Below, piece after piece: positions 53,421 through 58,918 of a stretch of DNA of 64,000 nt. Made by a program: the position numbers and the translations under genes. Each line of letters opens with the position of its first letter. The stretch's first letter is position 1. The stretch spans positions 124,001 through 188,000 of the forward strand of contig NZ_MBLO01000235.1 in NCBI RefSeq assembly GCF_001854805.1, in the 5' to 3' direction. The DNA is from Pseudofrankia coriaricola (GTDB lineage: Bacteria; Actinomycetota; Actinomycetes; Frankiales; Frankiaceae). The notes beneath the pieces are model-generated. The model was not told the origin of the DNA, ran no database searches, and was given only the letters and a program-made list of their open reading frames with translations.

Positions 53421-53922
53421 TACCAGTGGCGACCAGCCCCCGACATCCCTCGACGCCCCCGGGATGTCGGCGGTCGGCCGGGACGATGTCCTCGGGGTTG
53501 GGGGCCAGGTCTGTAGCCGCTGTTGGATGCTGGCGTTGAGCTGGGTCAGTAGTCGCTCGAATCCATGGCGACGCTCCCGTCCGGCAGCTGCTCGGATACG
53601 TCCAGGCTGCCGCAGCCGATCATGACAGCGGGCGCGGCACCAAACATATCGGCGGACCGTCGAGACCACCGGCGACCAGCGGGCGGCGGGTGGTACGGCC
53701 TCGCCCGGAAGAAGAATTCCTAATTCGCGCTCATACAATGACGGAAAGTAATAGTATGCAATCTCACGTTTGCGGGTGCTTACGGGCGACGACGGTCATG
53801 GAATCCGACGGCGCGCGTGTGGGTACCCGACGGCGCTGGGACCACCCATTCGGGGGCCGGCGGAAGTAGCGATCTGGTGCACCAAATGACGTGGCGTGGC
53901 GAGACCCGGGGCCGGTCCGCGT

Positions 53923-53951
53923 TTGCTTTTGAGGTGTGAGAGGGCTACAAA
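53923..53951 (+). promoter_or_regulatory. Promoter in front of the GT4/GH130 operon
   Basis: TTGCTT (53923-53928), 17 bp, TACAAA (53946-53951). The match to consensus is partial. The predicted start point falls inside the CIRCE element. Confidence 0.5.
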
Positions 53952-53955
53952 TGGG

Positions 53956-53982
53956 TTAGCACTCAGTAAGGTCGAGTGCCAA
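53956..53982 (+). promoter_or_regulatory. CIRCE (HrcA) operator
   Basis: TTAGCACTC-N9-GAGTGCCAA has the exact 9-9-9 layout of CIRCE (TTAGCACTC-N9-GAGTGCTAA), with one mismatch. The arms extend to 11 bp (GGTTAGCACTC / GAGTGCCAACC). It lies just after a promoter and about 177 bp before the first gene of a carbohydrate operon. HrcA represses groE/dnaK genes from such sites. None of those genes is in the window. Confidence 0.85.
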
Positions 53983-54158
53983 CCGCTGGTGTGACGGATG
54001 CCTAGGCCTACGTGACCTATCGTTTTCGTTTCTGGGCCCCGCCGGTGACCGGCGCTCCTCCCCGCGGGCACGAGCCCCGCGTCGCGCATCCACGGAGCAC
54101 AGCGCTCGCGTGACCGCCGGCCGACTCGGTGTCGGCAACTACCGGAAGGTGGGCCTTC

Positions 54159-55373
54159 GTGCCCCTCCGTTACGGCTTTCTGAGCACCTATTCCCCGACG
54201 CAGTGCGGCCTCGCCACCTTCACGGCGGCCCTTCTCGACGAACTGACCAGCGCGGCGCCCGGCGCCGCCAGCGGGGTGGTACGACTGCTCGAGGCACCAG
54301 CGGGGCCTGGCCCGCGACCAGGGGCCGTCGTGGGGGACCTGGTGGCCGGGACCCCGGGTGGCCCGCGCCGCGCCGCGCGGCTCCTGAACGGTTTCGACAT
54401 CGCGGTCGTGCAGCACGAGTACGGGGTCTACGGCGGCCCGGACGGCGACGAGGTGATCGAGGTACTCGACAATGTCGAGGTGCCGGTGGTGGTCGTCCTG
54501 CACACCGTGCTCGTGAGCCCGTCCCAGCACCAGCGCGAGGTCATGGAGGCGCTGGTCGCGTCCGCGGACGCGGTTGTCGTGATGACCGAGACCGCGCGGG
54601 CCCGGCTGGTCGACGGGTACCGCGTCCACCCGTACCGGGTCTCGGTCATCCCGCACGGCGCGGCGGACAACCGCCGGGCCGCGCCCGCGCGGTCCGCCCG
54701 GCCGACCATCCTCACCTGGGGCCTGCTCGGACCAGGCAAGGGCATCGAGTGGGGCATCGCGGCGATGGCGGAACTGACGGACCTCGACCCGCCTGTGCGC
54801 TACCTCGTCGCGGGGCAGACCCATCCCAAGGTCCTCGCCCGGGATGGCGAGGAGTACCGGGACAGGCTGGCCGCGCTGGCCAGTCGACTCGGCGTGGCCG
54901 ATTCCGTCACCTTCGACCCCCGCTACCTCGACAGCGGGTCGCTCGCCGAGCTCGTGAGCGGCGCCGACGTCGTCCTGCTGCCCTACGACTCCGTCGACCA
55001 GGTGACCTCGGGCATCCTCATCGAGGCGGTCGCGGCGCTGCGGCCGGTCGTCGCCACCCGGTTCCCGCACGCGGTCGAACTGCTCGGCGACGGCGCCGGC
55101 CTGCTCGTGCCGCACGGTGACGTGGCGGCCATCGCGGCGGCGGTGCGCAGCATCGTCACCGATGACGGCGTCGCCCGCGGGCTGACGAGCGCAGCCTCCG
55201 CCCACGCACCCGAGCTGCTGTGGCCCGCGGTGGCGCGGAGCTACCGCCGACTGGCTGCCGGCCTGGCCGCCCGCACCGGGAGCAGGCTCGGCGTCGCACC
55301 CCTACCCGCGCCCCAGCGGGCGCCCGCGCCGGTGCCCACGCCCATGACGGCGACGGCGACGGCGACCCGGTGA
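54159..55373 (+). CDS. Family-4-like glycosyltransferase
   Basis: The 404-residue GT-B enzyme begins MPLRYGFLSTYSPTQCGLATF and contains LLGPGKGIEWGIAAM and DVVLLPYDSVDQVTSGILIEAVAALRPVVATRFPH, the GT4 nucleotide-sugar region with the EX7E-like Glu. It is cytosolic. I chose GTG 54159 with GGAAGG 8-9 bases upstream. It is the first gene of a three-gene operon with 4-bp overlaps, behind a CIRCE operator. The C-terminus has a (Thr-Ala)n tail encoded by a GGCGAC repeat. It probably transfers mannose or glucose to a glycan or small solute. Confidence 0.87.
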   Translation: MPLRYGFLSTYSPTQCGLATFTAALLDELTSAAPGAASGVVRLLEAPAGPGPRPGAVVGDLVAGTPGGPRRAARLLNGFDIAVVQHEYGVYGGPDGDEVIEVLDNVEVPVVVVLHTVLVSPSQHQREVMEALVASADAVVVMTETARARLVDGYRVHPYRVSVIPHGAADNRRAAPARSARPTILTWGLLGPGKGIEWGIAAMAELTDLDPPVRYLVAGQTHPKVLARDGEEYRDRLAALASRLGVADSVTFDPRYLDSGSLAELVSGADVVLLPYDSVDQVTSGILIEAVAALRPVVATRFPHAVELLGDGAGLLVPHGDVAAIAAAVRSIVTDDGVARGLTSAASAHAPELLWPAVARSYRRLAAGLAARTGSRLGVAPLPAPQRAPAPVPTPMTATATATR

Positions 55374-56389
55374 CACCCGCGATCTCGTTTGCCCATCTCT
55401 TCCGACTCAGCGACGACATCGGCCTTTTCGAGCACGCTCTCGGCTCGGTCCCGCGTCGGGAGTACGGGTACTGCGTGGACGACGTCGCGCGCGGGCTGGT
55501 CGTCCTCTCCCGCGAGCCGTCGCCACCCCTGGACCTCATCCGGCTGCTCCAGCTCTATCTCGACTTTGTTCTGGCGGCGCAGGCGCCGGACGGGAGGGTC
55601 GTCAACCGGCGCGACACCGAAGGCCGGTGGCGGGACGACCCCGAACTCGGCGACTGCTGGGGCCGAGCCCTGTGGGGGCTGGGCACCGCGGCGGCCCTGG
55701 CGCCCACCCACCGGCTGCGGGCACTGGCCCGGGCCGGGTTCCATGCCAGCGCCACCCGCCGTTCCCCCTGGCCGCGAGCCATGACGTTCGCCGCCCTCGG
55801 AGCGGGCGAGCTGCTGCTCGCCCATCCGGACGACGGGTCGGCTCGTGCTCTGCTCGCCGACGCCGTCACCGCGATCGGCCCGATCGGCGACGATCCCGGA
55901 TGGCCCTGGCCGGAGCCCACGCTGCGTTACGCCAACGCGGCGGTGCCGGAGGCGCTGATCCTGGCCGGCATGTGCCTGTCCGACCGGACGGCGCGCGCGG
56001 ACGGCCTGCGGCTGCTGGCCTGGCTGCTCCACGTGGAGACCCGGGGCGGAACGCTGTCACCGACCCCCGTCGGCGGCCGGCGTCCGCGGGGCGATCCCAG
56101 GCCTGGCTTCGACCAGCAGCCCATCGAGGCGGCGGCCATCGCGGACGCCTGCGCGCGGGCCCACGCGGCGACCAGCCAGCACCGGTGGCTCACCGGTCTC
56201 CGGCAGGCGCACGGATGGTTCCTCGGCGAGAACGACGCCAGCACTCCGCTGGTCGACACCACGACCGGCGGTTGCCACGACGGCCTCGAACCCGGGGGAC
56301 GCAACGCCAACCAGGGGGCGGAGTCCGCGCTCGCCCTGCTCTCCACGGAGCAGCACGCCCGCCGGCTGCTGGCGCCGAGTACACCGTGA
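55370..56389 (+). CDS. Alpha/alpha-toroid glycosidase-like protein of unknown activity
   Basis: The 339-residue protein begins (GTG) VTPAISFAHLFRLSDDIGLFEHA and has repeated helical segments with DDVARGLVVL, GRWRDDPELGDCWGRALWGLG and RNANQGAESALALL, which look like a six-hairpin (alpha/alpha) toroid as in glycoside hydrolases and mannose epimerases. It is usually annotated as hypothetical or glycosyltransferase-associated. Start and stop overlap both neighbours by 4 bp. I suggest that it acts on the product of the adjacent GT4, but no catalytic residue can be assigned. Confidence 0.7.
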   Translation: MTPAISFAHLFRLSDDIGLFEHALGSVPRREYGYCVDDVARGLVVLSREPSPPLDLIRLLQLYLDFVLAAQAPDGRVVNRRDTEGRWRDDPELGDCWGRALWGLGTAAALAPTHRLRALARAGFHASATRRSPWPRAMTFAALGAGELLLAHPDDGSARALLADAVTAIGPIGDDPGWPWPEPTLRYANAAVPEALILAGMCLSDRTARADGLRLLAWLLHVETRGGTLSPTPVGGRRPRGDPRPGFDQQPIEAAAIADACARAHAATSQHRWLTGLRQAHGWFLGENDASTPLVDTTTGGCHDGLEPGGRNANQGAESALALLSTEQHARRLLAPSTP

Positions 56390-57885
56390 CCCTTGAGTTG
56401 GACCTGGTCACCCGGCTTCCGCTCACGCTGGCCGCGGATCCCGGCAGGGTCATCGCGAAGCTCTTCCTCCCCGGCGAGGAGGGCGCCGAGGGGCACTCCC
56501 GGGCCGCGGGCATCGTGGACCGGGTACTCGCCCTGACCGACGACGAGGTCGACGGCCTCGTCGACGCCCTGCTCGACCGGTTCGAGCCCCGTCACCGGGA
56601 CTACCGGGGCACCCTGGCGCGGCACGCGGCGATCGTGGCTCCCCGCGTCCGGGCGCCGGCCGAGCTCTCGCCGGCGCGCACGCTGCTGCTCGGCGCGAGC
56701 TTCACCGCCGAGTACGCGGTGGAAGGCGCAGCCGTCACCAATCCATCGGCGGTCGCGCACCCCGACCAGTCGGGGCTGCCACCCGGCGCACTGCGCCTGG
56801 TGCTCAGCCTGCGCGCCGTCGGCGAGGGGCACATGTCCTCGATCGGCTTCGCCGTCGGCGTGCTGGGCCCAGGCCCGACGGTACGGCTGGAGTCACGCAC
56901 CGGTCCGCTCACCACCGGCATGGTCGTACCGGTCGCGTGGGAGCGCGGCCGGCTGCGCTCCCTGCTCGCCGACCATGGCCTCGACGATGAGGTCACACGC
57001 TCTGTCCTCGACGCCCTCGACAGGAGTTTGGCCGGCGATGGGCTCGAAAGGGCCTTCGCCAGCATGCCCGCGGAACTCCTGCGCCGTCCGCAGGCCGCCG
57101 GCATCCTGGCCGGGATCCGGTCCGTCGCCGGATCGCTGCGGGGAGTCGAGTTCCCGGTGGACAGCGCCCTCACGCAACGGGTGCTGTGGCCCACTGTCGC
57201 CAGCGAGAGCAAGGGAATGGAAGACGCGCGGTTCGTCCGCTTCACCGCACCGGACGGAACCGTCGACTACCGAGCGACATACACGGCCTATGACGGCACC
57301 CACATCCTGCCGAGACTGCTCACCAGCCCCGACCTGCGGATCTTCACGTCCTCTCCGCTGGCCGGCCCGGCGGCCCGGAACAAGGGGATGGCGCTGTTCC
57401 CCCGGCTTGTCGGCGGCCGTCACCTCGCGCTCTGCCGATCCGACGGGGAGACCACCGGTCTGACGGCGTCCGATGACGGGCTGGTCTGGGAACCGTCCCG
57501 ATCGGTCCATGAACCGAGGGCGCCGTTCGAACTCATTCAGGTCGGCAACTGCGGCTCACCCATCGAGACGTCAGCGGGCTGGCTCGTCCTCACCCACGGC
57601 GTCGGGCCGATGCGCACGTACACAGTGGGAGCGATCCTGCTCGACCTGGCGGACCCGTCCACCGTGGTCGCGACGCTGCCCGAGCCGCTGCTCACCCCGA
57701 CCCTGACCGAGACCGACGGCTATGTCCCCAACGTCGTGTACTCCTGCGGCGGGCTGGTCCATGACGGGCGGCTGTGGCTCCCCTACGGGATCGGTGACTC
57801 CCGGGTCGGGATGGCGAGCGTGCCCGTCGACGCCCTGCTCGCGCGGATGACCCGGGCAACCGCCCGACCCGTCGAACAGAGCTGA
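56386..57885 (+). CDS. GH130-family glycoside phosphorylase/hydrolase
   Basis: The 499-residue protein has the GH130 five-bladed propeller in its C-terminal 300 residues with GMEDARFVRF (Asp280, the catalytic-type Asp), YTAYDG and GNCGSPIET. About 250 N-terminal residues form an extension seen in the longer GH130 subfamilies. GH130 enzymes act on beta-1,2 or beta-1,4 mannosides, mostly as phosphorylases. The GTG overlaps the preceding stop. The stop codon is in a 9-bp tandem repeat that gives a second in-frame stop. No signal peptide, so it is cytosolic. Confidence 0.85.
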   Translation: MTLELDLVTRLPLTLAADPGRVIAKLFLPGEEGAEGHSRAAGIVDRVLALTDDEVDGLVDALLDRFEPRHRDYRGTLARHAAIVAPRVRAPAELSPARTLLLGASFTAEYAVEGAAVTNPSAVAHPDQSGLPPGALRLVLSLRAVGEGHMSSIGFAVGVLGPGPTVRLESRTGPLTTGMVVPVAWERGRLRSLLADHGLDDEVTRSVLDALDRSLAGDGLERAFASMPAELLRRPQAAGILAGIRSVAGSLRGVEFPVDSALTQRVLWPTVASESKGMEDARFVRFTAPDGTVDYRATYTAYDGTHILPRLLTSPDLRIFTSSPLAGPAARNKGMALFPRLVGGRHLALCRSDGETTGLTASDDGLVWEPSRSVHEPRAPFELIQVGNCGSPIETSAGWLVLTHGVGPMRTYTVGAILLDLADPSTVVATLPEPLLTPTLTETDGYVPNVVYSCGGLVHDGRLWLPYGIGDSRVGMASVPVDALLARMTRATARPVEQS

Positions 57886-57899
57886 CGGGCCTGACGGGC
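57882..57899 (+). repeat. 9-bp tandem duplication over the GH130 stop
   Basis: CTGACGGGC occurs twice. The first copy contains the stop TGA (57883-57885). The second gives an in-frame TGA nine bases later. Confidence 0.75.
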
Positions 57900-57916
57900 C
57901 CGAACCGTCGGACAGG

Positions 57917-58918
57917 TCAGCGCAGGATGCGTTCGTAGACGGCGAGATAGTCGGTGACCATACGAGCCATCGAGAACCGCCGGCTCGCGGTGGCCCGGCA
58001 CGCGGCGCGGTCGAGATCCGCGGCGCGGTCCACCGCCGCCACGGCCGCCGCCGGATCGTCCACCAGGAACCCGGTCACTCCCTCGTCCACGACCTCCGGC
58101 ATGGCCCCACGGCGGTAGGCGACAACCGGCGTGCCGCACACCATCGCCTCGACGACCGCCAGGCCGAACGGTTCGTCGAACGCGATGGGATGCAACAGCG
58201 CCGCGGCGGAACCGAGCACCTCCGCTCGCCTGGACGGCCCGACCGGCCCGAGGTAGCTCACGGCGTCCCCGTCGACGTGGGGCCGCACCTGTTCGACGAA
58301 GTAACGCTCGTCCTGAACGATCCCGCAGATCACCAGCCGCCGGCCGGCCAGGCGGGCGATCTCGACGGCCGCCGCGGTGCCCTTGTCGGGATGGATCCGG
58401 CCGAGGACGACCAGGTCCTCCCCACCAGCGACCGAGAACGGAAGGGCGGCCAGATCGACGCCGTGGTACACCGTCGCGGCATAGTCCAGTTCCGGGCTGC
58501 GATCGGCGTCGGAGATGGAGACGTAGGTGGAGGCCGCCCGCGCATAGGCGGGGACGATCCGCGGGTCGGAGAATCCGTGGACCGTCGTGACCATCGGTGC
58601 CCGGACATGCGCCGCGAACGCCAGCGGCAGCCAGTCAAGATGGTTGTGCACGAGGTCGAACTCGCCGGAGCGGGCCAGCGCGTGGGCCACGTGCAACGCC
58701 TCCCACACCCGGCCGTCGAGCGCTGGGTCCTCGGCGTACCCGTGCGGGCACACGCCGTCCAGCTTCCCGGCCGTGCGCGAGTCCAGCGTCGCGAACAGGG
58801 TGACGTCGACGCCGCGCGCCACCAGGCCCTCCGCGAGGTGGCTGGCGATCTGCTCCCACGGGCCGTAATGCTGAGGCGGGGTGCGCCACGCCACCGGCGC
58901 CAGCATCGCGACCTTCAT
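57917..58918 (-). CDS. Family-4 glycosyltransferase, convergent to the GH130 operon
   Basis: The 333-residue GT-B enzyme begins MKVAMLAPVAWRTPPQHYGPWEQI and has a GT4 C-terminal domain with VLGRIHPDKG and HPIAFDEPFGLAVVEAMVCGTPVVAYRRGAMPEVV (EX7E). It is on the opposite strand, and its stop is 31 bp from the GH130 stop. This GT4, the other GT4, the toroid protein and GH130 form a four-gene set that appears to make and break a mannose-like glycan. ATG 58918 has no strong ribosome site. Regulation is separate from the CIRCE promoter. Confidence 0.88.
   Translation of the reverse strand: MKVAMLAPVAWRTPPQHYGPWEQIASHLAEGLVARGVDVTLFATLDSRTAGKLDGVCPHGYAEDPALDGRVWEALHVAHALARSGEFDLVHNHLDWLPLAFAAHVRAPMVTTVHGFSDPRIVPAYARAASTYVSISDADRSPELDYAATVYHGVDLAALPFSVAGGEDLVVLGRIHPDKGTAAAVEIARLAGRRLVICGIVQDERYFVEQVRPHVDGDAVSYLGPVGPSRRAEVLGSAAALLHPIAFDEPFGLAVVEAMVCGTPVVAYRRGAMPEVVDEGVTGFLVDDPAAAVAAVDRAADLDRAACRATASRRFSMARMVTDYLAVYERILR

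Follow-up and report, generated by a model that had tools for sequence, protein, structure and literature searches.

Positions 53923-57885 of the 64-kb stretch of Pseudofrankia coriaricola DNA analysed here (the window; its genome is G000 in our set) hold a three-gene sugar operon preceded by a controlling inverted repeat of chaperone expression (CIRCE), the presumed operator of the repressor HrcA. The sequence TTAGCACTCAGTAAGGTCGAGTGCCAA at 53956-53982 forms the CIRCE dyad TTAGCACTC-N9-GAGTGCCAA, one mismatch away from the consensus used, TTAGCACTC-N9-GAGTGCTAA (as in PMC3842655). The single-mismatch site reported by the initial annotation of this DNA was thus confirmed; it is the sole match at up to three mismatches in the window, and shuffled windows yielded none (0/100). 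At up to one mismatch, 0.00066 sites would be expected by chance per 11.2-Mb genome at the G+C content of the window (0.723). The promoter region and the genes, referred to below as the GT4-toroid-GH130 cassette, are arranged as follows.

53923..53928, plus strand: putative -35 box TTGCTT, recognised by alignment to promoters of relatives with and without groEL
53946..53951, plus strand: putative -10 box TACAAA, 17 nt past the -35 box and aligned with the promoters of relatives
53956..53982, plus strand: CIRCE, presumed HrcA operator (pattern match; same site in relatives)
53983..54076, plus strand: leader from a deleted groEL gene (groEL 5' untranslated region), matching the groEL leader of the relative G001 up to its position 184 and matched in a 69-nt DNA search
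54077..54158, plus strand: former groEL-GT4 intergenic stretch, where the match resumes at G001 position 1843, past the groEL stop; it carries the GT4 ribosome-binding site
54159..55373, plus strand: GT4-type glycosyltransferase (PF13692, PF00534 and PF13439 over cut-off)
55370..56389, plus strand: toroid protein, a predicted alpha/alpha barrel carbohydrate enzyme (structure model and fold matches)
56386..57885, plus strand: GH130-family protein (PF04041 scoring 94.5 bits, cut-off 26, and fold)

The gene joints at 55370 (GT4/toroid) and 56386 (toroid/GH130) are 4-bp GTGA overlaps, in agreement with the three-gene operon initially annotated, and its description as a carbohydrate operon is borne out by the Pfam matches of the GT4 and GH130 proteins. 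Given the aligned -35 and -10 boxes just upstream, the CIRCE would cover the transcription start. We propose, with a probability of about 0.8, that the operon is the remnant of an HrcA-controlled CIRCE-groEL-GT4-toroid-GH130 heat-shock operon. Its origin can be read from the sequences, namely from the CIRCE, the HrcA gene, the homology to groEL promoters, the deletion junction, the groEL gene in 8 of 18 related copies and its repeated loss; from these we infer that present-day control of the window operon by HrcA is likely.

groEL in front of the cassette in Frankiaceae

Among 35 Frankiaceae genomes, the GT4 cassette was found in 17, in a total of 18 copies, and the DNA upstream of GT4 was inspected in all of them (a search with GH130 alone matched 18 of the 35 genomes, G025 with broken pieces). 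In eight of the 18 copies the end of a groEL gene lies directly upstream of GT4, giving the order CIRCE-groEL-GT4-toroid-GH130. The initial remark that no chaperone gene is nearby holds for the window copy, but not for these relatives. In G001 a complete groEL precedes GT4 by approximately 100 bp, and a CIRCE with one mismatch stands ahead of groEL. In the other seven groEL-bearing copies (G002 twice, G004, G008, G011, G012 and G028) the contig stops inside groEL. In G004, G011 and G012, contig ends that bear a CIRCE plus the N-terminal part of groEL have over 5 kb of upstream flank in common with G001; for the remaining four copies the link to the cassette is weaker (407 bp in G002) or presumed. 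By sequence, the operon groEL belongs with groEL2, with 94% identity to groEL2 of the window genome (323 residues compared) and 68% to the groEL1 of that genome.

The window promoter aligns with the promoters of these operon groEL genes from the -35 box through the CIRCE and into the leader. A blind search with 69 nt of the promoter matched 22 of the 35 genomes, and its five best matches outside the own genome are the CIRCE-groEL promoters of G011, G001, G012, G002 and G004 (84-86% identity), three of which are connected with the operon through over 5 kb of common flank or, in G001, by direct contiguity. Some of the further matches are promoters of stand-alone groEL genes, and several weaker ones are unclassified. 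Additional stand-alone groEL genes with a CIRCE of their own were seen at G001:C1:7054156 (CTGGCACTC-N9-GAGTGCCAA), on G008:C132 and on G006:C464; G001 has four groEL genes altogether, at 1.20, 1.84, 7.05 and 7.31 Mb.

The groEL gene is missing in the other ten cassette copies, including that of the window. Compared with G001, the window leader matches up to position 184, shows a gap over the groEL ribosome-binding site and open reading frame (203-1831), and resumes at 1843, which places the deletion junction at about 54076/54077 and the missing DNA at approximately 1.66 kb. The copy in G031 aligns across the same junction. Different traces are left elsewhere: the groEL ribosome-binding site in G010, groEL N-terminal remnants in G030 and G032, and a groEL-leader match extending to about 30 nt before GT4 in G017, G020 and G021. 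When the cassette proteins were concatenated and a tree was built, the copies without groEL fell into five clades, two of the relevant branches being weak (0.63 and 0.66), so that with a single groEL gain assumed there were at least five losses. The tree does not track the genera, since copies from another genus are closer to the window copy than are those of G032 and G033, which belong to its own genus; transfer between species is therefore likely, as judged against vertical descent from the cassette tree and the upstream flanks alone. G000 and G031 show strong conservation of the intergenic stretch 54077-54158 (from GCGCATCC up to the ribosome-binding site), which can also be recognised in the groEL-bearing copies; short inverted repeats occur in it, and it may function in translation or processing.

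Relocation of the operon groEL, rather than its deletion, was considered and rejected: G031 (two contigs) and G032 (one contig) each hold only two groEL genes against four in G001, and the third groEL gene of the window genome (C159/C137) is part of an apparent second copy of the operon. A groEL gene with a perfect CIRCE and an operon-like promoter is cut by the end of contig C159, and C137 carries a groEL C-terminus followed by a GT4 stub, which is frameshifted (residues 1-18 and 12-41) and lost past about 41 residues; no toroid or GH130 match was found on the 2.8 kb of C137 examined. As the contigs break inside groEL, it is from the promoter and the type of the C-terminus that we infer C159 and C137 to be parts of one second copy. 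If so, the two copies seem to have decayed in opposite ways, the window copy losing groEL and the other its sugar genes.

The GT4-toroid-GH130 cassette is also widespread among actinobacteria outside Frankiaceae. When one genome per species was scanned, at least 577 stretches were confirmed, the best 80 of which comprise six from Frankiaceae and 74 other loci. None of these 74 stretches, some of them short, contained groEL (E 1e-8) or a CIRCE (up to four mismatches). A GT4 gene precedes in the same orientation at 66 of the 74 loci, and at least 500 bp of upstream DNA was available in 60; these 60 regions were kept for counting CIRCE sites and the other 14 were dropped. No CIRCE precedes the cassette in any of the 60, their best sites having six to nine mismatches against one in the window. 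In the ten non-Frankiaceae genomes that were tested, CIRCE-type sites do occur elsewhere, at up to three mismatches in all ten and at up to one in nine; the reversed control gave one to nine matches per genome at up to three mismatches, so that only strong sites count. The absence of CIRCE before the cassette outside the family indicates that it joined the cassette in Frankiaceae, along with groEL.

Operator, repressor and competing explanations

The window genome encodes one HrcA (PF01628, E 1.3e-56, over cut-off), and an HrcA gene is present in 33 of the 35 Frankiaceae genomes. At up to three mismatches, CIRCE occurs at seven places in the whole genome, against one for the reversed control. 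The window site, with its single mismatch, is the second strongest, and only a groEL promoter on C159 is stronger. The six other places are as follows.

C159: CIRCE, 0 mismatches, before groEL
C213: CIRCE, 2 mismatches, before groES-groEL1
C276: CIRCE, 2 mismatches, plus a second site of 4, before groEL2
C34: CIRCE, 3 mismatches, upstream of hrcA
C272:9723-9749: CIRCE-like, 3 mismatches, before a zinc-ribbon (FmdB-like, PF09723) gene
C234: CIRCE-like, 3 mismatches, weak dyad

The dyad directly before the small zinc-ribbon gene is conserved (G000:C272:9723-9749 and G005:C1:6171046), with one arm altered (GCAGTC), and this gene is perhaps the counterpart of Mycobacterium tuberculosis ruc (Rv0991c).

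The following scenario would account for the window operon. In Frankiaceae, a groEL2-type chaperonin gene with a CIRCE promoter became established ahead of the GT4-toroid-GH130 cassette; in the lineage of the window, the groEL open reading frame and its ribosome-binding site were later deleted, which left the promoter, the CIRCE and the leader directly before GT4. HrcA would bind 53956-53982 over the start point and repress transcription. According to one report, HrcA activity is set by the availability of GroE (PMC3842655). When unfolded proteins occupy GroE, HrcA would be released, and the cassette would be transcribed together with the chaperonins. Unlike that of the ancestral operon, its product would no longer feed back on HrcA, making the cassette a pure output of the switch. 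The sugar enzymes would in this way probably respond to protein-folding stress.

It was initially suggested that CIRCE be sought in front of the GT4-GH130 orthologues of related genomes. Among the ten groEL-less Frankiaceae copies, it is kept at one mismatch in five (G000, G031, G010, G030 and G007), weakened in three and lost in two. Loss of the dyad from orthologous promoters, initially named as a ground for refutation, is therefore seen in two of the ten, with a weakened variant in three more. In the five copies at one mismatch all 18 arm sites are invariant, against averages of 0.62 for the spacer and 0.60-0.68 for the flanks, although much of this spacer and flank divergence may predate the groEL losses. 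The pair G000 and G031 offers a fairer test of selection, since one junction is common to both: none of 18 arm sites changed, compared with 27 of 99 leader sites (P 0.006) and 40 of 240 when all other sites are taken (P 0.043). The stretch of the -35 and -10 boxes is likewise conserved (30/32). The conservation of the arms favours selection on the operator, without proving it.

Two readings of present use share the origin from a groEL operon. Somewhat below even odds, we consider that HrcA control of the glycan cassette has been kept by selection: after at least five groEL losses the chaperonin operator would have been co-opted, a cassette making or recycling mannosides would now be a feedback-free stress output, and the two copies in this genome would split the job. 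Alternatively, the promoter and the CIRCE are passive leftovers of groEL, drifting and of no benefit even where HrcA binds, and the cassette merely borrows a strong promoter, which we also regard as possible at rather less than an even chance. Such a relict would explain the decay of CIRCE in G032 and G033 and its weakening in G017, G020 and G021, and it is compatible with the marginal P value obtained for G000 and G031 against all other sites, with the similar conservation of the -35/-10 stretch and with the lack of a genus pattern among the copies, which may therefore be recent transfers. It accounts less readily for the contrast between unchanged arms and a changing leader (P 0.006), for arms that are identical in five groEL-less copies, and for the mirror-image arm changes in the three weakened ones.

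The initial annotation proposed that HrcA control would couple a glycan or compatible solute to folding stress, which implies an operator that arose by itself before a carbohydrate operon. Such an origin has to be abandoned, because the operator comes from the deleted groEL gene that headed the operon; the coupling itself may have been selected for. An independent origin fits the window taken alone, with no chaperone gene nearby, but in relatives groEL or its remnants lie between the CIRCE and GT4, and both leader and promoter are groEL sequence; we rejected it as scarcely credible, unless the groEL-bearing copies are all later insertions. Very improbable, too, is a reading of the dyad as an RNA hairpin or some unrelated palindrome in which HrcA has no part. 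Its position within what is presumably the 5' untranslated region would allow a stem to form; however, the chance expectation is 0.00066 per genome, the CIRCE arms are not paired with each other in the predicted fold, and five of the six other places in the genome precede chaperonin, hrcA or zinc-ribbon genes. An RNA hairpin or attenuator in the leader was rejected separately: the leader folds no better than shuffled sequences (z -0.29), and no terminator-like site was found in 53700-58100.

Several observations weigh against our proposal that the operon is an HrcA-controlled remnant of a groEL operon. The CIRCE has three to four mismatches in G017, G020 and G021, where the two arms of the variant TTAACACTC-N9-GAGTGTCAA are altered as mirror images of each other, and it is decayed in G032 (five mismatches) and G033 (an insertion). 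Among the groEL-bearing copies, only G001 has the CIRCE and the cassette on one contig, and a strict sigma-70 scan detected no promoter at the -35 and -10 boxes. In addition, FRAAL1700-1702, presumably the cassette of a Frankia alni strain, are unmentioned in the main text of two studies of this species (PMC8951365 and PMC10520049), which thus lend no support to co-induction of the cassette there. It should be noted that the other CIRCE-type sites listed in the genomes of G017, G020 and G021 retain GCACTC in at least one arm.

The groEL gene of the same operon can be followed further. The order of the groEL genes in G001, which we take to be Frankia alni strain ACN14a, corresponds to FRAAL1134, 1699, 6486 and 6701. 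From this order, FRAAL1699 is probably the operon groEL. The four tags are given for GroEL in the two studies (PMC8951365, PMC10520049), one of which uses "GroEL homologs" loosely, covering also tags that appear in the other as grpE and groS. As reported there, the FRAAL1699 protein is more abundant in nodules (fold change 2.16; PMC8951365), and its RNA is increased under AgLTP24 (log2 1.39; PMC10520049).

Enzymes of the cassette

The GT4 protein has only remote relatives in the PDB. For the toroid protein, neither a Pfam or NCBIfam match (the Pfam query began at its second codon) nor a PDB relative by sequence was found. Its structure model (predicted local distance difference test score 94.5) is an alpha/alpha barrel, matched best by 7tem (Z 36), followed by sugar 2-epimerases (Z 26-28), GH76 mannanases (about 26) and GH9 chains in a similar range, all at sequence identities of 8-17%. 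The predicted barrel fold is common to the toroid protein and the AGE-type sugar 2-epimerases, but GH9 and GH76 proteins score alike, 7tem scores higher and the family profile gave no match. The toroid protein is thus like cellobiose 2-epimerases, 7tem, GH9 and GH76 in predicted fold, but could be placed in no Pfam or NCBIfam family.

In the GH130 protein, about 260 N-terminal residues are without any family match, whereas the C-terminal half resembles beta-1,2-mannoside phosphorylases in sequence and structure (Teth514_1788, 9fj8/9gph; 7fip; Lin0857). The protein is nevertheless far under the NCBIfam equivalog cut-offs for such enzymes (112 against 450 bits and 104 against 550), including that of the beta-1,2-mannobiose phosphorylase equivalog NF052550 (111.8 against 450 bits). 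Residue D280 in the GMEDAR motif, the putative catalytic aspartate and proton donor, is the same in all 25 sequences aligned.

Judged from the families alone, the cassette probably makes or remodels a mannose-containing glycoside, and a mannose-containing product or mannoside substrate is plausible. The mannose-type glycan or compatible solute initially suggested is thus made plausible on the GH130 side, with no substrate assignable to GT4 or the toroid protein. Six-frame clustering of open reading frames in the 74 loci outside Frankiaceae mostly recovered the cassette, whether in its real frames or in shadow ones, and one further neighbour in 19 loci, presumably GH13-like; the clustering was too noisy for a substrate to be assigned from it. 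A second GT4-type glycosyltransferase gene, at 57917-58918 on the minus strand, is convergent with the operon and outside it.

Relation to known HrcA regulons

In searches of the open-licence PubMed Central literature, no paper was found that describes a CIRCE-groEL-GT4-toroid-GH130 operon, HrcA and CIRCE in Frankia, or HrcA and CIRCE with a non-chaperone gene. Within the reach of these searches, HrcA control of a sugar cassette would be a new finding for an actinobacterium. For non-chaperone targets in general there is a precedent in Lactobacillus plantarum, where two non-chaperone genes were changed in hrcA mutants, according to PMC3842655. HrcA regulons consist mostly of chaperone genes; here a sugar cassette entered behind a duplicated groEL and stayed under the groEL operator on deletion of groEL, apparently several times, which outlines a testable way for a regulon to acquire genes unrelated to it. 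Heat, hrcA and GroE load would also provide a first handle on the actinobacterial cassette, for which no functional description was found.

The window copy is like the Frankia CIRCE-groEL-cassette operon (G001) in promoter, leader and cassette, and differs by the missing groEL open reading frame. Compared with a groE chaperonin operon, it is without a chaperonin gene, which 8 of the 18 related copies have. As reported for M. tuberculosis, four genes are repressed by HrcA, three of them for chaperonins and the fourth the chaperone gene ruc, Rv0991c (PMC7448276). That regulon (groES-groEL1, groEL2 and ruc) and the window operon have the same operator and repressor family, and presumably a like placement over the start point, whereas the genes behind the window CIRCE encode a glycosyltransferase, a toroid enzyme and a GH130 protein, and the chaperone is gone. 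We regard the window operon as a branch of the known HrcA/CIRCE regulon that has no chaperone gene and whose origin can be traced.

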